Positions 33,383 through 54,564 of a DNA stretch of 64,000 nt are shown piece by piece (position 1 is the stretch's first letter; every line of letters begins with the position of its first letter). A model generated the notes under the pieces. That model did no database searches and was not told the origin of the DNA. It was given only the letters and a program-made list of their open reading frames with translations. Made by a program: the position numbers and the translations under genes. The stretch spans positions 124,001-188,000 of the forward strand of contig NZ_ALKN02000005.1 in the NCBI RefSeq assembly GCF_000293865.2, written 5' to 3'. The DNA comes from Limnohabitans sp. Rim28 (lineage in GTDB: Bacteria > Pseudomonadota > Gammaproteobacteria > Burkholderiales > Burkholderiaceae_C).

Positions 33383-33679
33383 TCACGAGCCGGGGTGCTC
33401 CGCAATGAATTGACGCAGCGCAGCGTCAATACGCGTTTGCCAGCCATCGCCGCTGGCTTTGAAATGCGCAATCACTTCTGGCGATAGTCGCATGCCCACT
33501 CGCACCTTCGTAATCTCAGCTTTGGGCCTACCGCGTGGTGTCAACAAGGACTGCGTTCGTTCAGGACTGAAAAGTTGGCCGAGCACTTCACCGGCGGGTC
33601 TCGCTTTGGCCAAGTCTTCTACCGTCCAGGCCGGATTGTCTGTGTCGGGTGTGTGTGACTGGGTTTTGCGTTTGCTCAT
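33383..33679 (-). CDS. BrnA-family (ribbon-helix-helix) antitoxin, orphan
   Basis: 98 residues from the ATG at 33679; an in-frame ATG at 33724 would add 15 residues. The N-terminal half DNPAWTVEDLAKARPAGEVLGQLFSPE and C-terminal RHH helix pair (VRVGMRLSPEVIAHFKASGDGWQTRIDAALRQFIAEH) match BrnA/DUF4415 antitoxins. BrnA normally neutralises the RNase BrnT encoded just upstream. Here the 248 bp upstream hold no BrnT-like frame, so it is an orphan. It is divergent from cas3, and a decayed relative lies past the CRISPR array. Confidence 0.85.
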   Translation of the reverse strand: MSKRKTQSHTPDTDNPAWTVEDLAKARPAGEVLGQLFSPERTQSLLTPRGRPKAEITKVRVGMRLSPEVIAHFKASGDGWQTRIDAALRQFIAEHPGS

Positions 33680-33927
33680 GGCGTGGAGTTTTAAGCGCTT
33701 GACTATGCGCTGATGGTTGATCAAGTCAAAGCAGATGATTTGGCTTCTTTATTGTGCCCACAAAAATAGCACACAAGAAATTTTGAGGCATCTCAATATT
33801 TGAGTCAAAAAACAATTATTCTGGTGACTAATGAGATCTAAAGTTAATGTTTTATATGGATGCATCATGCTTGCTTTTGCAATTCATCTATTTGGAGTGC
33901 GCGCAGGGGTGATTCGGGGGCTGGTAC
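33680..33927. other. AT-rich divergent intergenic region between brnA and cas3
   Basis: 248 bp, much more AT-rich than the core genes on the left. It must hold promoters for both the leftward antitoxin gene and the rightward cas operon. An inverted repeat is annotated separately. No confident -35/-10 pair can be assigned and no reading frame is convincing. Confidence 0.5.
33783..33804. promoter_or_regulatory. inverted repeat TTGAG/CTCAA with a third half-site
   Basis: TTGAG-GCAT-CTCAA occupies 33783-33796, and a further TTGAG follows at 33800. The three half-sites sit in the shared brnA/cas3 intergenic region, about 125 bp from cas3 and 104 bp from brnA. RHH antitoxins bind short palindromes near their own promoters, so BrnA is a candidate ligand. 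Unproven. Confidence 0.45.
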
Positions 33928-36246
33928 ATGAATGAGCAAGCCACACCAACTTATTACGCCCACACAGGCAATCGTTCAGATGGCACGGATTGGCAGCCCC
34001 TCAAAAATCACCTCACGTCAGTCGCACAGCTGGCGCAAACCCGTGCGCAAGCATTTGGGGCCGCAGATTGGGCTCACTTGGTCGGGTTGCTGCACGACCT
34101 GGGTAAATACTCTCGAGCTTTTCAAAAGCGACTCCATGGCAGCAATGAGCGGGCCGATCATGCGACGGCAGGGGCCAAGGTTGTGGTTGATCACATCGTC
34201 GAAATCATGGGGCCGCAATTTTTGCCGTTGGGCAAATTATTGGCCTTTGCTATTGCTGGGCACCACACAGGTTTGGCCAATGGGATTGATGAAGGGCAGG
34301 AACGCTCAAACCTGAAACAACGATTGGCTCTGGAGTTTGGCAAAAACCTCCCTGCTTTGGACGAACTCTGGCGGCAAGAAATTGAGCTGCCAAAGACTTT
34401 GCGAATTCCCGCATTGAAGCCACATTTACCTCAAGGCAAGTACACCAATTTTGGCTTGATATTTTTTGCTCGGATGCTCTTTTCTTGCCTGATTGACGCA
34501 GACCGCATCGACACCGAAAACCATGCACGTTCTACCGACGGCAAAGCGCCGTTAGCGACTAATTTCCCCAACATCGCAATTCTGCAAGCTCAATTAGGCC
34601 AACATTTGCAGCAGCTGGCTAAAGGGGCAAAACAGACGGATGTAAATGTCTTGCGGCAACACATCCTGACCCATGCACGCCAACAAGCGCTCAAACCCCG
34701 TGAGTCTGGCTTGTATTCACTGACGGTGCCTACGGGCGGTGGAAAAACACTGACATCGCTGGCCTTCGGGTTGGATCATGCGGTTCAGCATCAGCTGCGC
34801 CGCGTGATTTACGTTATTCCATTCACCAGCATCATCGAGCAAACCGCCGATGTATTTCGCCAGGCCATGGGTGAACACAAAGATGCGGTGCTTGAGCATC
34901 ACAGTGCTTTTGATCGTGACAAGTTGCCCGAAGAAATCAAAACGGCCAGCAAATCCCGCCAAGCGGATTACCGCGACAAGCTGCGATTGGCCATGGAAAG
35001 CTGGGATGCGCCCATTGTGGTGACCACTGCGGTGCAGTTCTTTGAATCGCTGTTCTCTGATCGCACAACGCAATGCAGAAAATTGCACAACATTACAGGA
35101 AGCGTCATCGTGCTGGACGAGGCTCAAACGCTGCCCCTGAAGCTGTTGCGGCCCATCATGGCCAGCATTGATGAATTGGCCCTCAACTATGGTTGTTCGG
35201 TGGTCCTTTGCACGGCCACACAACCCGCGCTGAAAGACAGCGATGAGTTCAACAATGGGTTCAGCAAGGTGCAGGAAATTGCACCCAACCCACAAGAGCT
35301 TTTTAAAAAACTGCGACGAACGCAAGTCCAACCTTTGGGTGTGCAAAGTGACGAGCAGTTGGTAGCGCACCTTCGTAGCCACACTCAAGTGCTAATGATT
35401 GTTAATAACCGGCGACATGCGCGTGAACTTTTCGACGGCATTGCGATCGAAGAAGGCGCATATCACCTGACCACTTCGATGTGTGCGGAACATCGAAGCG
35501 AAAAACTGGCCCAAATTCGCCAACGTCTTAAGGATGGTCTGGCCTGCCGATTGGTCGCCACGTCATTGATTGAGGCGGGGGTGGATGTGGACTTTCCCAC
35601 GGTGTACCGAGCTGAAGCGGGGTTGGACTCGATTGCCCAAGCCGCAGGCCGTTGTAACCGCGAAGGCAGACGTTTGTTGGCAGACAGTCAGGTTTATGTT
35701 TTTCAAAGTCCAGATTGGAAAGCCCCGCCTGAGCTGGCGCAGTTGGCCGCCCCCATGCGCTCCATTTTGCGCAACCATGAAGGCGATGTGCTTGCGCCAG
35801 AGGCATTGAAAAGCTACTTCCAGCAGGTGTACTACGCCAAAGGTGCCGATCTGGATCATCACCAAATCCTGAACAAGATTCGCATCACCGATGGCTGTGA
35901 TTTCCCGTTCCAAGACATTGCCCGTGACTTTCGCATGATCGACAGCCACATGCTGCCAATCATCGTGCCGTTTGATGACGTGGCCAGTGACAACCTTGAA
36001 TTGCTGCGCAACCTGCCCGAAAACATGAGCGTAGGAAAAATCGCGCAAAAGCTGCAGCGCTATGTGGTGCAAGTGCCAGAGAGGACATTCGTGCAGCTGC
36101 TCAAGCTGGGTGCTGTCGCTGTCATTGCACCTGAGAAATTTGGCAACCAGTTTTACGAACTGGTTGCGCAATCGCTTTACAGCCCGATTGCTGGCTTGAA
36201 CTTTTCAGACCCTGTTGCCATGAGCGCAGAGTCTGCTGTTTTCTAA
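33928..36246 (+). CDS. cas3: CRISPR-associated helicase/nuclease Cas3 (type I-C)
   Basis: 772 residues. N-terminal HD nuclease domain: HLVGLLHDLGKYSRAFQKRL (His-Asp at about 60), DHATAGAK, GHHTG. SF2 helicase domain: Walker A VPTGGGKTLTSLAFG near 268, DEAQ box in VLDEAQTLPLKLLRP near 397, CTATQPAL, then motif V/VI SLIEAGVDVDFPTVYRAEAGLDSIAQAAGRCNREGR. Cas3 is recruited by Cascade to degrade the non-target strand. First gene of the cas operon; cas5c follows after 15 bp with a GGAGG site. Confidence 0.96.
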   Translation: MNEQATPTYYAHTGNRSDGTDWQPLKNHLTSVAQLAQTRAQAFGAADWAHLVGLLHDLGKYSRAFQKRLHGSNERADHATAGAKVVVDHIVEIMGPQFLPLGKLLAFAIAGHHTGLANGIDEGQERSNLKQRLALEFGKNLPALDELWRQEIELPKTLRIPALKPHLPQGKYTNFGLIFFARMLFSCLIDADRIDTENHARSTDGKAPLATNFPNIAILQAQLGQHLQQLAKGAKQTDVNVLRQHILTHARQQALKPRESGLYSLTVPTGGGKTLTSLAFGLDHAVQHQLRRVIYVIPFTSIIEQTADVFRQAMGEHKDAVLEHHSAFDRDKLPEEIKTASKSRQADYRDKLRLAMESWDAPIVVTTAVQFFESLFSDRTTQCRKLHNITGSVIVLDEAQTLPLKLLRPIMASIDELALNYGCSVVLCTATQPALKDSDEFNNGFSKVQEIAPNPQELFKKLRRTQVQPLGVQSDEQLVAHLRSHTQVLMIVNNRRHARELFDGIAIEEGAYHLTTSMCAEHRSEKLAQIRQRLKDGLACRLVATSLIEAGVDVDFPTVYRAEAGLDSIAQAAGRCNREGRRLLADSQVYVFQSPDWKAPPELAQLAAPMRSILRNHEGDVLAPEALKSYFQQVYYAKGADLDHHQILNKIRITDGCDFPFQDIARDFRMIDSHMLPIIVPFDDVASDNLELLRNLPENMSVGKIAQKLQRYVVQVPERTFVQLLKLGAVAVIAPEKFGNQFYELVAQSLYSPIAGLNFSDPVAMSAESAVF

Positions 36247-36261
36247 AGATTTGGAGGATAA

Positions 36262-36939
36262 ATGAGCTACGGCATCAAACTGCACATCTGGGGTGAATAC
36301 GCTTGCTTCACTCGACCGGAGATGAAAGTGGAGCGTGTGAGCTACGACGTGATCACGCCATCAGCGGCGCGTGGCATTTTGGAGGCGATTCACTGGAAGC
36401 CGGCCATTCGATGGCAGATTGACCGCATACATGTGCTCAAGCACATACGGTTTGAGTCGATCCGACGCAACGAAGTGGGCAGCAAGATTTCGGCTCGTAA
36501 CGTGACTTCGGCGATGAATGCCAAAAGCACGCAAGACCTGCACCTCGTGTCGGACGAGGATCGCCAACAGCGCGCAGCAACGGTTTTGCGTGATGTGGCC
36601 TATGTGATCGAAGCGCACTTTGAGATGACCAGCAAGGCGGGCAGCGATGACAACGTTGGCAAACACCTCGACCAATTCAATCGTCGTGCACGAAAAGGGC
36701 AGTGCTTTCATCAGCCATGTATGGGCACACGCGAATTCGCGGCTCACTTTGCGCTGCTGGGCGAAGGTGATCAATGGCCACAGAGTGAATTGAATGAGGC
36801 CCAAAAGAACAGAGATCTGGGGTGGATGCTTCATGACATTGACTTTGCCGCTGGCTATGTGCCGCATTTCTTCAGGGCTGAATTGAAGGATGGTGTGGTT
36901 GAGGTCCCCGCATTTCAAAGCGAGGGTTTCAAGTCATGA
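36262..36939 (+). CDS. cas5c: type I-C CRISPR protein Cas5c (Cas5d), crRNA-processing
   Basis: 225 residues, ATG at 36262 after GGAGG. The N-terminal RAMP fold (YGIKLHIWGEYACFTRPEMKVERVSYDVITPSAARGILEAIHWKPAIRW) is the Cas5d signature. In type I-C this subunit itself cuts pre-crRNA at the repeat hairpin, since there is no Cas6, and stays at the 5' handle. No cas6 is present in this locus, in agreement. ATGA overlap with cas8c. Confidence 0.95.
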   Translation: MSYGIKLHIWGEYACFTRPEMKVERVSYDVITPSAARGILEAIHWKPAIRWQIDRIHVLKHIRFESIRRNEVGSKISARNVTSAMNAKSTQDLHLVSDEDRQQRAATVLRDVAYVIEAHFEMTSKAGSDDNVGKHLDQFNRRARKGQCFHQPCMGTREFAAHFALLGEGDQWPQSELNEAQKNRDLGWMLHDIDFAAGYVPHFFRAELKDGVVEVPAFQSEGFKS

Positions 36940-38171
36940 TTCTCAGTCGACTTAATGAGTTGTACAGCAGGTTGCTAACTCAATACGATGAATCAGGTAG
37001 TAAGCCTGTTTGCCTAGTACCGTCATATGGCTTTAGTGATGAAAAAGTTGGCTACCTTTTGGTGCTTGATGAACAAGGGAATTTGAAAGATGTTCAGCCA
37101 AATTTGGTAGAAGTGAAAAAAGGTAAGAAAACGCTGCAGGATGAGCGTCGAATGCGAGTGCCGTGTGCATTTGGACGATCAGGAAAATTTACCGAAAAGG
37201 CGTTCAATGCAGGAAAGAACGTTGCATTCTTTCTATGGGACAAGCCTGAATTTTTGCTGGGTGTTTTACTCAATGGTAAAAAAATTGAACTGGCAGATTT
37301 GCCTTATCGCGCTTTCAAAGCCAAGCAGAAAGATCTGATTGGTACTTCAGAAGATCCGGGGCTGAAAGCGGTGTTGAAATTCCTAGATCAATGGCAACCC
37401 GAAAATTTCGAAAAACTGTCGTTCTTTAATTCCGAAATGCTCAAGTCAAATTTCGCGTTCAAATTGGACGGAGATCTGAGCATCATTGCTGACAGGGCTG
37501 CGGCTGTTAAATGTTGGGATGACTATTGTAAAGATCAGAAAAATTCCGTGACTAGGCAGTGCTTAATTACTGGAGAGGTTGGGTCGCTTGCTGAAACCCA
37601 CCCTGTTCTCAAGGTTGCAGGTGGTCAATCATCTGGCGTTGCAATCGTGACCTACAACGAAAAAGCTTATGAGTCATTTAGTAAAAGCCAAGGTGACAAT
37701 GCTCCTGTTTCAGAGCAAGCCGCCTTTGCGTACACCACTGCGCTGAACTATTTGCTGCGACGCGAATACGGCCATTGCCTTGCGATTGGTGACACCAGCA
37801 CTGTCTTTTGGGCGCAAGCAAAAGATGCACAGCAAGAACAAGAAGCCGCCAGCTTATTTGCCAGCATCGTTAACCCACCTACGGACGATGGACAGTCCAA
37901 CAAGGTAAAGCACATTCTGGAGAAAATTTCCAAGGGTCGACCATTTGAAGAGGTCGCACCTGAAGTTGATCCGTGTACAAAATTTTTTGTTTTAGGTCTG
38001 GCACCTAACGCAGCCAGATTATCGATTCGATATTGGCTTGAAAGTACCCTAGGTGAGTTGGGGCCGCGTTTGGTTGAGCATTGGAAGGACATGCAAATTG
38101 AACCGCATCCCTGGCAGCCAGAAAGCCCACCTTCATCACAACTCCTTTTGCTGGAGCTGGTTCCGTTAAGG

Positions 38172-38178
38172 AAAAAAA
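38172..38178 (+). other. A7 homopolymer at the cas8c frameshift
   Basis: The zero frame reads AGG AAA AAA ACG and the downstream frame reads AAA AAC GGA AAG. Either one A has been lost from an original run of eight, the assembly is one base short, or polymerase/ribosome slippage on the run recodes it. Confidence 0.8.
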
Positions 38179-38388
38179 CGGAAAGCATGACTACCGTGGT
38201 CGCAAGTTTGACGACATTCCACATCAACTGGCTGGGGAGTTTTTGCGCAGCATCCTGACGGGGCAACGCTATCCCCGTCAATTACTCACAAAACTCGTGC
38301 AGCGCTTGCGTTCGGACGGCGACGTTAATGGACTGCGTGCGTCACTCATCAAAGCGTTGTTGCACCGCGACCATCGCAAAGGTTTTAC

Positions 38389-38396
38389 AAAGGAGG
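38389..38396 (+). promoter_or_regulatory. strong internal Shine-Dalgarno inside cas8c
   Basis: AAAGGAGG, a near-complete match to anti-SD, lies eight bases before an in-frame ATG at 38405, inside the C-terminal part of cas8c. It is as good as the sites in front of the free-standing cas5c and cas7c genes, and marks the internal start of the small subunit. Confidence 0.85.
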
Positions 38397-38404
38397 CTAT
38401 CCCC

Positions 38405-38800
38405 ATGTCACTTGAATTAGAGAATGGACCACTGGCTTATCGCCTTGGGTGCTTGTTTGCTGTGTTGGAACAGGCCCAGCGCGGTGCGTTGGGCGATGTG
38501 AATTCCAGCATCGTCGACCGCTATTACGGAACCGCATCCAGCGTACCGTACTCGGTCTTTCCACGGTTGATTGCCGGTTGTCAGAACCACCTGTCCAAGA
38601 TTCGCAAGGACAAGCCGGGCTTTGCGGTCAATTTGGATAAGCAATTGGGCAGTGTGATTGCAAGTCTCCCGCATTCATTCCCTAAGCAACTCACCATTGA
38701 GCAGCAAGGTCAATTTGCTGTGGGGTACTACCAACAAAAGCAAAGTTTCTTCGCCAAGAAAGACAGCTTGCCATCCGCATCACCCACCCCAAGTAATTGA
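38405..38800 (+). CDS. cas11c: type I-C small subunit Cas11c, internal start in cas8c
   Basis: 131 residues starting [23 protein letters not shown], in the same frame as the C-terminal half of cas8c. The segment is mostly helical, as expected for a Cas11 small subunit, with [35 protein letters not shown] in the middle. In type I-C systems the small subunit is known to be made from an internal start within cas8c. The near-perfect Shine-Dalgarno here supports the same. It lies downstream of the frameshift and does not depend on translation through it. cas7c starts 17 bp after its stop. Confidence 0.8.
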
Positions 38801-38817
38801 ATCAAAGGAGAATCCAC

Positions 38818-39699
38818 ATGACCATTCAAAACCGCTACGAATTTGTTTATCTGTTTGACGTGACCAACGGCAATCCGAACGGTGACCCGGATGCAGGCAA
38901 TATGCCGCGTCTTGATCCCGACTCCAGCCGTGGCCTGGTGACGGATGTTTGCTTGAAACGCAAGATTCGAAATTTCATTGAGTTGATTGAAGATCAAACG
39001 CAGGGTTACGACATTTACGTCAAAGAAAAAAGTGTTTTGAACCTTCAGAATAAAAAAGCCTATGAGGCACTTTGCATCACTCCAGAATCTAAAAAAATGC
39101 CGAAAGACGAGGTCAAGGCTCGTGAAGTGACAGCTTGGATGTGTAAAAACTTTTTTGACGTTCGCACCTTTGGTGCAGTCATGACTACCGAGGTCAACAG
39201 TGGTCAAGTAAAGGGCCCGGTCCAACTGACTTTTGCAAAATCCGAAGACCCCGTTATTCCATTGGAAGTGTCCATCACCCGCATGGCTGTCACCACCGAA
39301 AAAGAAGCCGAGGCCCAATCGGGTGACAACCGCACCATGGGCCGCAAGCACATCGTGCCTTACGGCCTTTACCGTGCGCACGGTTTCATTTCAGCGCATT
39401 TGGCCAAGAAAACCACAGGCTTTTCAGACGATGACTTGAGCAAGCTTTGGCAAGCACTTGAGCAGATGTTTGAGCATGACCGCTCTGCTGCCCGTGGCGA
39501 AATGGTGGGTCGACATTTGGTGGTCTTCAAGCACGCCACAGCTTTGGGCAATGCACCTTCACATGAATTGTTTGAACGCGTGGTGGTGGATCGGGTTCAA
39601 GGCGAGAAGGGGTTGCCTGCACAAGCGTTCTCAGACTATTCGGTCAAGCTCGACGGGCAAGCGATCAAGGGCTTCAAGCACGTTGTAGAAGTCGTTTGA
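38818..39699 (+). CDS. cas7c: type I-C CRISPR backbone protein Cas7c (Csd2)
   Basis: 293 residues, ATG at 38818 seven bases after AAAGGAG. The N-terminal motif [28 protein letters not shown] is the Cas7/Csd2 signature, and [11 protein letters not shown] plus the His-rich [16 protein letters not shown] follow. About seven copies form the crRNA-binding backbone of the type I-C Cascade. Confidence 0.96.
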
Positions 39700-39745
39700 T
39701 TTTTTGAGGCGGTTGATCGATAAACTGCACTGCCATCACACCACT

Positions 39746-40423
39746 GTGGATACGCCTCTCGCCATCTCCGCCCTGCAGCACTATGCCTATTGCCCGCGCC
39801 AGTTTGCTTTGATTCATCTGGAGCAAGCTTGGAGTGACAACCACTTCACGGCGCAGGGCAATGTGTTGCACGCGCGTGTGGACAGCCAAGAGGCTGAAAC
39901 ACGCGGCAGCAAGCGCAGCGAACGGTCGGTGGAGGTTCGGAGTGAGCGCTTGGGGCTTTACGGCAAGCTTGATTTGTTAGAGGTGTTCAGCCAGGCCGAT
40001 GGCAGCAAGAGCTATGTGCCGGTCGAGTACAAGCGCGGCAAGCGCAAAGTGATGGATTGGGACCGCATTCAGCTTTGTGCCCAAGCCATTTGTTTGGAAG
40101 AAATGCGCGGCGTGTCGATTGCCGAAGCCGCCTTGTGGTACTGGCAAGAACGCTTGCGTGAGGTGGTGTCACTGGATGCGCGTTTGCGTGCCGACACCGT
40201 GGCTTGCATCGAGGCCGCACGCGCTGTCTTGCAAAGTCAAATCACACCAGCACCCACAACCGACGTTAAACGCTGCAAGGCGTGTTCGCTCATGGACGAG
40301 TGTGCGACTGCGGTGGTGCGCAAAGACCGATCTGCCCGGTACGTCCAAACATTGTTTGAGGGGCCTCCTTTGGGTGGCGATGCAAATATCGATGCCAACA
40401 AACATGTTGAGAGTTCAACTTGA
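39746..40423 (+). CDS. cas4: CRISPR-associated exonuclease Cas4
   Basis: 225 residues from the GTG at 39746 (VDTPLAISALQHYAYCPRQFALIHLE). The frame also opens at a TTG at 39704, directly behind the cas7c stop, adding 14 residues; neither has a good ribosome site and the choice is open. RecB-type nuclease residues: His in LHARVD, Asp in LYGKLDLLE, and Glu/Lys in VPVEYKRGKRK. Fe-S cysteines: one in YAYCPRQ and three in CKACSLMDEC. Trims prespacers and selects PAM-bearing ones with Cas1-Cas2. TTGA overlap with cas1. Confidence 0.93.
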   Translation: MDTPLAISALQHYAYCPRQFALIHLEQAWSDNHFTAQGNVLHARVDSQEAETRGSKRSERSVEVRSERLGLYGKLDLLEVFSQADGSKSYVPVEYKRGKRKVMDWDRIQLCAQAICLEEMRGVSIAEAALWYWQERLREVVSLDARLRADTVACIEAARAVLQSQITPAPTTDVKRCKACSLMDECATAVVRKDRSARYVQTLFEGPPLGGDANIDANKHVESST

Positions 40424-41436
40424 AGAAGCTGCTCAATACCCTCTACATCACGCGACCTGAATGCTATTTGCATAAGGAGCGCGAGACCGTTGTGATCAAA
40501 CAAGGGGACAACAAACTTGGCCAGTTTCCCATGTTGGCCTTGCAAAACATTTTGTGTTTTGGACAGGTGAGTGTGTCGCCCGGGCTCATGGCGGCGTGTC
40601 TTGAGTCTGGCGTCGGGTTGTCTTTTTTTACCGAGTTTGGAAAATTTCAGGCCCAGGTCATGGGCATGCCCAAGGGCAATGTGCTGTTGCGGCGCACGCA
40701 ATACCGTTGGGCTGACGACGAAGAAAAATCGGTATCTGTAGCGCGCTTGATGATTGCGGCCAAGGTGGGCAATTGCCGCGCAGTGCTGATGCGTGAGCAA
40801 CGCAATCATGGGGCCAGTGATGCGTTGGCTCACGCGGCAGAAAAAATGGCCGCACTTTTGGAGAACATACGTCATGCCCGAAATGTGCCGCAACTGATGG
40901 GCTTGGAGGGCGAAGCTGCCAGTGTTTATTTTGGGGTGTTCAATTCGTTGTTGAGGTCGCATGGGTTCGATTTCTCGGGGCGGGTTCGTAGGCCACCCGG
41001 CGATCCGGTCAATGCCTTGCTTTCATTTGCCTATGTTTTGTTGGCCAGCGAATGTGCGTCGGCTTTGGCGGGTGTGGGGCTGGACCCTTATGTTGGGTTT
41101 TTGCACCAAGATCGACCCGGCCGAAAAAGCCTTGCACTGGACTTGATGGAGGAGTTGCGCGCACCGCTGGCTGATCGTTTTGTGTTGACCCTCATCAACC
41201 GAGGGCAGATGAAGTTGGATGATTTTGTGACCGAGGCGAGTGGTGCTGTGCGACTGAAAGACGATGCCAGAAAAACTTTTTTGACGGCCCATCAAGAGCG
41301 CAAGAAAGAAAGCCTGAAACACCCCTATTTGGAAGAGAGCATTGAGCTGGGTTTGCTGCCCCATGCACAAGCCCTGCTGTTGGCCCGTCACCTGCGTGGC
41401 GACATGCAGTACTACACGCCATTTGCAGTGAGGTGA
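40420..41436 (+). CDS. cas1: CRISPR integrase Cas1 (type I-C)
   Basis: 338 residues from a TTG at 40420 that overlaps the cas4 stop; GTTGAGAG just upstream can serve as ribosome site, and KKLLNTLYITRPECYLHKE is the expected I-C Cas1 start. Catalytic residues: Glu in GLEGEAASVYFGVFNSLL, His in GFLHQDRPGRKSLALDLMEE, and Asp in the same helix. Integrates new spacers at the leader end with Cas2. Confidence 0.96.
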   Translation: MKKLLNTLYITRPECYLHKERETVVIKQGDNKLGQFPMLALQNILCFGQVSVSPGLMAACLESGVGLSFFTEFGKFQAQVMGMPKGNVLLRRTQYRWADDEEKSVSVARLMIAAKVGNCRAVLMREQRNHGASDALAHAAEKMAALLENIRHARNVPQLMGLEGEAASVYFGVFNSLLRSHGFDFSGRVRRPPGDPVNALLSFAYVLLASECASALAGVGLDPYVGFLHQDRPGRKSLALDLMEELRAPLADRFVLTLINRGQMKLDDFVTEASGAVRLKDDARKTFLTAHQERKKESLKHPYLEESIELGLLPHAQALLLARHLRGDMQYYTPFAVR

Positions 41437-41440
41437 TCGC

Positions 41441-41734
41441 ATGTTGATGCTGGTGACCTATGACGTGAACGTGACCACCCGTGCGGGGGAACGGCGCTTG
41501 CGTCACATCGCCAAAGTCTGTTTGGACCATGGCGTGCGCGTGCAAAATTCTGTATTTGAATGCGAAGTTGATCCTGCTCAGTGGGTTCAATTCAAGGCTG
41601 AGTTGTTGCGCATTTATGACCCGAACCAGGACAGTTTGCGGTTTTATTCGCTGGGTAAACGTGGCGTGGAAAAGGTAGAACACTGCGGGGCAAAGCCGAC
41701 CTTCAACCCGTTGCACAGCACGTTAATTTTGTAG
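41441..41734 (+). CDS. cas2: CRISPR-associated Cas2
   Basis: 97 residues, ATG at 41441 five bases after cas1. The first beta strand carries the conserved Asp (LVTYDVN). RRLRHIAKVCLDHGVRVQNSVFECEVDP and a C-terminal tail GVEKVEHCGAKPTFNP are as in other I-C Cas2 proteins. Structural core of the Cas1-Cas2 integrase. The CRISPR leader begins right after its stop. Confidence 0.95.
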   Translation: MLMLVTYDVNVTTRAGERRLRHIAKVCLDHGVRVQNSVFECEVDPAQWVQFKAELLRIYDPNQDSLRFYSLGKRGVEKVEHCGAKPTFNPLHSTLIL

Positions 41735-41911: not shown

Positions 41912-43516
41912 GTCGCCCCTCATGCAGGGGCGTGGATTGAAACCCAGATCACACTTGCTATGTCGAGGTGTTTGCGGTCGCCCCTCATGCAGGGGCGTGG
42001 ATTGAAACCCCTTTGCTGGCAAGCAAATAGCCGTTGATCGTGTCGCCCCTCATGCAGGGGCGTGGATTGAAACGACAGTGCCCGACCAAAACGGTCTGAC
42101 ATGCAAAGTCGCCCCTCATGCAGGGGCGTGGATTGAAACTTCGTCAATCCAGGTGTCGCTGGCGTCAGACGTGTCGCCCCTCATGCAGGGGCGTGGATTG
42201 AAACAAGGCTATCAAAAAACGGCCTTGATTGCCACCAAGTCGCCCCTCATGCAGGGGCGTGGATTGAAACACGCTGGAGCTGTATGCGGGCGAAGACCGT
42301 GCAAGTCGCCCCTCATGCAGGGGCGTGGATTGAAACTGTCGTGGCCGCCTCAAGCTGGGCTTTGAGGGCGTCGCCCCTCATGCAGGGGCGTGGATTGAAA
42401 CACGCCACCGGTGTGGAGGTCATCGCGCCGCCGCGTCGCCCCTCATGCAGGGGCGTGGATTGAAACGTGTTGAGGCCTCCAGTACCGCTCTGATGCGAAG
42501 TCGCCCCTCATGCAGGGGCGTGGATTGAAACGCGTTGGAGTTTGCCGTGTTCGCGGTGGTGTTGGTCGCCCCTCATGCAGGGGCGTGGATTGAAACGCCG
42601 TGGCTGTGGCGCGCGGCAAGGCCAAAATCAGTCGCCCCTCATGCAGGGGCGTGGATTGAAACGCAGCGGTGCAAAGCGCAGCAGCCGAAGCACAAGTCGC
42701 CCCTCATGCAGGGGCGTGGATTGAAACTATCCAAGTCGATCCACCGTCTGTGGATGTCCAGGTCGCCCCTCATGCAGGGGCGTGGATTGAAACTTTGCCC
42801 ACCATGGCCTGAGTTGCCGCCAGTGGGTCGCCCCTCATGCAGGGGCGTGGATTGAAACCTGTCATATGCCCAAAATTCCACAGACCAAGAGCGTCGCCCC
42901 TCATGCAGGGGCGTGGATTGAAACCTGCGCTACTGGCAACAAAGCACAGACGACGCGATGTCGCCCCTCATGCAGGGGCGTGGATTGAAACATGTCCTCA
43001 AACATGGCCATGACACCAGCCTCCGTCGCCCCTCATGCAGGGGCGTGGATTGAAACATGCTCCACAAAAGCGAAGAGCGCTACCTGGACGGTCGCCCCTC
43101 ATGCAGGGGCGTGGATTGAAACGATCCATTGCCCCCGTTGTAAGACACATTGCGAAGTCGCCCCTCATGCAGGGGCGTGGATTGAAACACCCAGGTCGCC
43201 ATCTTGCAAAACGGTGTGGCGGTCGCCCCTCATGCAGGGGCGTGGATTGAAACTTCGTGCAGCTGGGTCATGGGGTTGAGGCCACGCGTCGCCCCTCATG
43301 CAGGGGCGTGGATTGAAACAGGTCGGTGACAGACCAGGTGGTCAGCCTGCAAAAGTCGCCCCTCATGCAGGGGCGTGGATTGAAACCGGTGCGGTAAAAC
43401 GCACGCCCTTGTCTGCCCCGTCGCCCCTCATGCAGGGGTGTGGATTGAAACAGTTTTTCCTCTCGACCCCTGCCAAGTGGAAAAGTCACCCCTCATGCAG
43501 CGGCGTGGATTAAAAC
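41912..43516 (+). CRISPR. type I-C CRISPR array, 25 repeats and 24 spacers
   Basis: The repeat is 32 nt, opening GTCGCCCCTCATGCAGGGGC and closing GTGGATTGAAAC; CCCCT/AGGGG gives the small hairpin cut by Cas5c, and GTGGATTGAAAC is the usual I-C 3' end. Starts run 41912, 41977, 42042, 42108 and so on to 43485. Spacers are 33-35 nt and all look different. Repeats 1-23 are identical; repeat 24 (43420) has one change and repeat 25 (43485) three. This marks the left side, next to cas2, as the leader end. Short reading frames spelling APHAGAWIE or SPLMQGRGLK repeatedly are repeat artefacts. Confidence 0.98.
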
Positions 43517-43593: not shown

Positions 43594-43701
43594 TTGTTGC
43601 CCCAGCAAAACCTCGTTTATAGGCTGCTTCTGTGCAAGGTCACGCGAAGTCCACGATGGATTGTCAATGTCGGGTTTGTGAGACTGAATTTTGGTTTTCT
43701 C
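43594..43701 (-). pseudogene. decayed BrnA-like antitoxin N-terminal fragment
   Basis: Read leftward, this frame gives KTKIQSHKPDIDNPSWTSRD and then LAQKQPINEVLLGQ, which lines up with KTQSHTPDTDNPAWTVEDLA and KARPAGEVLGQ of the intact antitoxin at 33383-33679. A stop codon (43702-43704) sits where the start should be, and the RHH half is missing. Orientation is the same as the intact copy. It is broken and overlaps nothing else real. The match is by eye but in register over about 35 residues. Confidence 0.7.
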
Positions 43702-54486: not shown

Positions 54487-54564
54487 GGGCAGGAGAGGGC
54501 TGCTGCAGTCCACGGCAGCGGCCCGGATTGGCCCCATAATTGCTGTATCTATCGAGGAGTTTCC

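Follow-up and report, generated by a model that had tools for sequence, protein, structure and literature searches.

The window, a 64,000-nucleotide stretch of DNA, contains a type I-C CRISPR-Cas locus in which one operon runs in the order cas3-cas5c-cas8c-cas7-cas4-cas1-cas2 and is followed by a CRISPR array. The whole type I-C gene set (cas3, cas5c, cas8c, cas7, cas4, cas1c, and cas2) is present, with cas8c in two pieces. The features are as follows, with L002 and L003 denoting the loci of two congeneric metagenome genomes used for comparison.

33928..36246, + strand: cas3, NCBIfam match (HD and core domain models)
36262..36939, + strand: cas5c, NCBIfam match
36936..38258, + strand: cas8c 5' part, an open reading frame matching PF09709 and TIGR01863, with 412 codons aligned to L002 and L003
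38172..38178, + strand: A7 run, read from the sequence, where the Cas8c frame is lost; A8 in L002 and L003
38177..38800, + strand: cas8c 3' part in the -1 frame, 207 codons plus stop, matching PF09709 378-559 and TIGR01863 396-585
38389..38396, + strand: AAAGGAGG, a Shine-Dalgarno-like motif read from the sequence, eight bases before an internal ATG
38405..38800, + strand: predicted Cas11c small subunit of 131 aa from the internal ATG, matching 7kha_K, 8g9s_H, and PF09709 444-559
38818..39699, + strand: cas7 (csd2), NCBIfam match with a query beginning at the upstream TTG 38797; ATG read from the sequence
39704..40423, + strand: cas4, frame as listed with a provisional start codon, NCBIfam match
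40420..41436, + strand: cas1c, NCBIfam match
41441..41734, + strand: cas2, NCBIfam match
41912..43516, + strand: CRISPR array, 25 repeats of 32 nt and 24 spacers

A split large subunit and a predicted hidden small subunit

Every cas gene other than cas8c scored above its NCBIfam cut-off, Cas3 through its HD and core domain models, in agreement with a first-pass annotation that had called these genes full length; the adaptation genes are intact. That annotation had also counted 23 identical repeats. The 23 identical 32-mers are there, but the array includes two degenerate repeats at its distal end. Just upstream of cas3 lies a gene for a BrnA antitoxin (33383-33724, minus strand; PF14384, E 8e-22), and just past the array is a brnA fragment (43649-43701; 54 bases, 80% identical to the upstream brnA), so that the cas locus may have been inserted beside or between brnA copies.

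The open reading frame at 36936-38258 comprises 440 codons, the first 414 in the frame of the relatives and the last 26 out of frame. Its final two native residues are lysines from the A7 run, and it ends with a TGA at 38256-38258, while the -1 frame is open beyond the run to 38800. The two parts match adjoining stretches of both family profiles, covering 1-387 and 378-559 of PF09709 and 3-391 and 396-585 of the 588 positions of TIGR01863, although the 3' part alone scores under the TIGR01863 cut-off. The split in cas8c is therefore confirmed as real in the given sequence, and no single intact Cas8c large subunit is encoded in the window. The first-pass annotation was right to place a -1 frameshift at 38172-38178 and to assign both halves to Cas8c.

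Within the 3' part, after the break and in the intact -1 frame, an ATG at 38405 stands behind AAAGGAGG, a motif that is the same in L002 and L003 and nearly so in the next relative, L004 (66% over the protein). The predicted 131-aa product matches the solved Cas11 chains 7kha_K and 8g9s_H (E about 7e-21) as well as PF09709 444-559. Across 41 cas8c genes, the window excluded, 35 have a start codon with at least five matching Shine-Dalgarno bases within 12 codons of the Cas11c column, compared to 29 of 779 control stretches from these genes, centred on codons 60 to 420. Passages of PMC7684278 describe an internal ribosome-binding site in Desulfovibrio vulgaris Cas8c that yields a separate small subunit (Cas8c residues 489-612), present in two copies per Cascade and sharing the fold of the Cas8c C-terminus.

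At the sequence level, then, the cas8c gene of the window carries an internal Cas11c start, a feature absent from the first-pass annotation. In L003 numbering, this start lies 78 codons past the beginning of the A-run, and the distance from the new stop to ATG 38405 is 146 bases. From this arrangement, Cas11c should still be made despite the break, and the lesion should remove Cas8c while sparing Cas11c, Cas5, Cas7, Cas3, and the adaptation genes. We infer that strong polarity on the downstream genes need not occur.

The A7 run among relatives

Genome contigs scanned with the 3' part yielded 12 loci, including L002 and L003 with 93 and 92% protein identity to the query. The gene is rare in the genus, because a search with the L003 protein found carriers in only 3 of 90 genomes: the window, with two pieces, and two genomes with one frame. 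The latter are 100 and 96% identical to the L003 protein and correspond to the L003 and L002 loci. Neither of these two congeners has a split gene; both have A8 at the site and a single open cas8c frame of 621 codons.

Over 5,051 aligned bases of the operon (33928-38978, nearly all coding), the window is 93.2% identical to L002 and 93.6% identical to L003, and these two are 93.5% identical to each other. Because the distance between L002 and L003 equals the distance of each from the window, A8 is ancestral by parsimony. Apart from an indel at its cut end, this alignment contains no indel but the missing A. Downstream of 38978, cas7 has three gaps against the relatives, summing to 12 bases, and at 39705, between cas7 and cas4 or in the first codon of cas4 as listed, a one-base difference separates the window (T6) from L003 (C plus four T's) but not from L002. 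The remainder of cas4, cas1, and cas2 has no indels relative to either. With the base at 39705 set aside, every frame change in the cas genes is compensated except the A7 shift, and the earlier statement that no other decay is visible stands, as we found no other clear frame-breaking indel there.

Substitutions offer a further view of the two parts. The first 412 codons of cas8c have a dN/dS of 0.13 against L002 and 0.11 against L003, and changes found only in the window are synonymous and nonsynonymous in a ratio of 17:8 in the 3' part and 20:10 in the 5' part. By these counts, the two parts appear similarly constrained, with no visible loss of constraint in the codons downstream of the break. 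The 75 codons between the run and the Cas11c start, which serve Cas8c only, contain one synonymous and two nonsynonymous window-only changes. This stretch is too short to date the event, and the changes are too few to support relaxed selection after the break.

Other parts of the operon differ in history. At 38979-39202, cas7 of the window resembles that of the more distant L004 and lacks a longer lysine-rich segment found in L002 and L003, while the flanks of this stretch are about 91 to 94% identical to L002 and L003, a mosaic that suggests recombination within cas7. The L002 array (L002 9852-10416) has a repeat that differs at three positions from the repeat shared by the window and L003; nonetheless, upstream of 38979 the cas genes of L002 and the window share 93% identity.

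The A7 run sits in an 11-residue insert, KKNGKHDYRGR, that among aligned Cas8c proteins occurs only in the window, L002, and L003. L004 has no residue of it. Besides L002 and L003, the alignment included 39 Cas8c proteins, and the longest filler in those columns among them is six residues. Because the insert is absent from all 39, it appears, together with its run, to be private to this clade as far as sampled. An AlphaFold2 model of L003 Cas8c built with 41 sequences (mean pLDDT 85.2, pTM 0.80) predicts a short hairpin at the break, with strands at 412-414 and 417-419 (mean pLDDT 75 for block 411-420), preceded by a helix at 401-408 and followed from 430 onward by a helical region. On this model, a break at the hairpin would leave the 5' fragment with the N-terminal lobe and without the helical part. 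Runs of eight or nine A or T also occur elsewhere in cas8c of L012, L112, L121, and L004, and at least eight A or T in a row are found in 6 of 42 cas8c genes, counting L002 and L003.

Wider surveys of 399 genomes of the family and 398 of the phylum found TIGR01863 matches in 53 and 30 genomes, respectively; two of these genomes, G000 and G279, were common to both, leaving 81 distinct genomes with a match. Only in the window was the match split across two frames of one contig. In six other genomes it was cut, across two contigs in G203, G311, and G398 and at a contig start in G619, G631, and G727. The remaining 74 had the match in one open frame, including G317, where a TGA was tallied inside the match but the locus reads as a closed 586-aa gene. 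No relative of the Cas8c 3' part was found in viral contigs. A coding-frame HMM applied to 464 kb of the genome counted 162 frame changes, most of them seemingly normal overlaps between genes, but missed the cas8c shift, and its count was not used. Two plasmid-collection entries, NZ_CP119142.1 and NZ_CP119140.1 (2.17 Mb, labelled Neisseria gonorrhoeae), contain a Cas8c-like stretch at 42% identity with no annotated feature shown, and N. gonorrhoeae is described in part of PMC10865793 as lacking endogenous CRISPR.

Accounting for the missing base

We consider it likely that a one-base contraction of an A8 run on the window lineage produced a real, recent, null or nearly null Cas8c allele. The relatives have A8 and the window A7, the frame is open on either side, and the change is the sole internal indel in 5 kb. 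Runs of at least eight A or T are mutable in Salmonella, where a section of PMC8538453 reports mutations in about 12.3% of such loci. Replication slippage in the homopolymer would have removed one A, so that Cas8c would be made as a 440-residue fragment (414 native and 26 foreign residues) without the helical C-terminal region. Cascade would then be left without a working large subunit, with PAM reading and the scaffold for small subunits expected to fail and interference lost or nearly lost. Cas11c would still be made from the internal start at 38405, and cas3, cas5, cas7, cas4, cas1, cas2, the leader, and the array would remain. With the other genes and the array intact, the allele is best viewed as a young and easily reversible null rather than part of a decayed locus.

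No cause for the loss or recent target emerged from the spacers. None was convincingly self-targeting (best genome match outside the array, 87% over 30 nt, E 0.054), leaving self-targeting unsupported as a reason for the loss, and none matched any of 50,697 phage records at E 0.1.

The first-pass annotation had offered a recent event or an assembly error, and a lone contraction of a run kept at A8 by the two closest relatives fits both. Assembly or base-calling errors commonly take the form of an isolated single-base change within a long homopolymer while the rest of the gene is clean; the cell would then have A8 and an intact cas8c, and the base at 39705 adds a second homopolymer difference. 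Against this, we compared 16,536 bp of flank with the genomes of two relatives, matched at 75 to 89% identity, and only 1 of 110 frame-changing gap events, many of them compensated or counted in more than one locus, fell in a homopolymer of at least five bases (at 54560, just upstream of an ATG). Several events outside homopolymers (e.g., 47640, 48826, and 62454) were uncompensated within 60 bases. Of 19 runs of at least eight bases in 464 kb of the genome, 15 lay inside open frames of at least 150 codons, a count biased because contracted runs would go unlisted. The genome is 100% complete in 67 contigs. That no general homopolymer problem is visible in the flank speaks against an error, although it cannot clear the A7 site itself, and we regard an error there as unlikely.

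A different possibility is that the run is real and is read through, if RNA polymerase or ribosomes slip at A7 often enough to supply useful full-length Cas8c. A -1 shift or one added A at the run restores the RKKNGK residues of the relatives, and small amounts of Cas8c may suffice for Cascade. The slippage rates available all come from cited work outside the genus of the window. Excerpts of PMC6260861 give 0.39% insertions by Escherichia coli RNA polymerase at one A7 run but no rescue of a GFP reporter for runs of fewer than eight A's, and PMC5574713 states in part that insertions increase exponentially with run length. According to passages in PMC1088944, selection against runs becomes evident at a length of nine in a large share of the 108 genomes analysed, so seven A's fall short of the length needed in many genomes; the run length needed depends on the organism, with shorter runs allowed and slippage in some species seemingly productive on eight A's. 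A portion of PMC5009743 discusses pseudogene-like genes that frameshifting may allow to be read.

For ribosomes, because the zero-frame codons are AGG AAA AAA ACG, the only -1 motif is the tetramer A_AA.A, with no X_XXZ_ZZN heptamer in register, and the section of PMC4066793 that measured six shift-prone tetramers with a strong pseudoknot ranks A_AA.A last. RNA from 38150 or 38180 on folded no better than shuffles (z of +0.9 to +1.4 for three stretches), and no stem-loop beating shuffles followed the run, by a folding method that does not cover pseudoknots. Nothing conserves the split, since both other carriers are in frame. Full-length Cas8c from slippage would be expected to reach a few tenths of a percent at most, programmed recoding is poorly supported, and useful readthrough of either kind seems very unlikely. 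The proposal in the first-pass annotation that slippage acts as a dial on activity is not supported, given these rates, the ranking of A_AA.A, and the lack of RNA structure better than shuffles.

Least probable of all, in our judgment, is a working but altered Cascade in which an N-terminal lobe joins C-terminal pieces translated on their own. The predicted hairpin that holds the break (412-419 of L003) sits where the N-terminal lobe gives way to the helical C-terminal region, Cas11c has its own start and, in the portion of PMC7684278 cited above, the fold of the Cas8c C-terminus, and a TTG at 38243, 13 bases before the stop of the first open reading frame, could restart translation. Residues 415-490, however, are missing from both the native 5' part and Cas11c, and a split of this kind was seen in no relative and in none of the genomes surveyed.

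A probable reversible loss of interference and its known counterparts

Homopolymer frameshifts and broken cas genes are ordinary. What makes a contraction at this site of interest is its geometry: Cas8c would be off and Cas11c kept, reversal is one base away, and the run is known only in this clade. The window provides a clean natural type I-C example in which one base costs the large subunit and a predicted hidden small subunit and the adaptation genes survive, and such alleles show CRISPR immunity switched off with an easy way back. One might view the run in its clade-specific insert as an on/off switch for interference, with an off state in which Cas8c is lost and Cas11c and the adaptation genes are expressed. 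If so, a subpopulation would keep recording spacers and maintaining the crRNA backbone without cutting and would revert by one base. Run length does toggle the frame between relatives (A7 versus A8), as in phase-variable genes, but between different genomes of the genus only. A single unverified allele is ordinary, while a mixed population would constitute a contingency switch on adaptive immunity; we consider such a switch highly improbable, if not quite so improbable as a working split protein. Among the titles and opening lines of abstracts listed by literature searches, and in excerpts of PMC6546361 and PMC10333696, no report of a homopolymer switch in cas8c appeared, which is not proof of absence; frameshifts annotated in a CRISPR locus of Mycobacterium lacus are mentioned in PMC10333696.

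Among known systems, the type I-C locus of D. vulgaris (8dej/7kha; Cas8 chains such as 8g9t) shares with the window its gene set and order, a Cas8c represented over its whole length, and a Cas11c encoded within cas8c. The window departs from that and other type I-C systems in that its cas8c is not one open frame. The genes rescued by slippage at A9, as described in part of PMC1088944, likewise have an A-run at a frame junction and a one-A mutation, but the window has seven A's rather than nine and no conserved overlapping organization of reading frames. The closest counterparts are L003 and L002, with 93 to 94% DNA identity over 5 kb of the operon and, unlike the 39 other aligned Cas8c proteins, the same insert and the same run site. 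They differ from the window in having A8, an intact 621-aa Cas8c, a longer cas7 variant segment, and, in a comparison by eye, 12 complete spacers of which none equals a spacer of the window.
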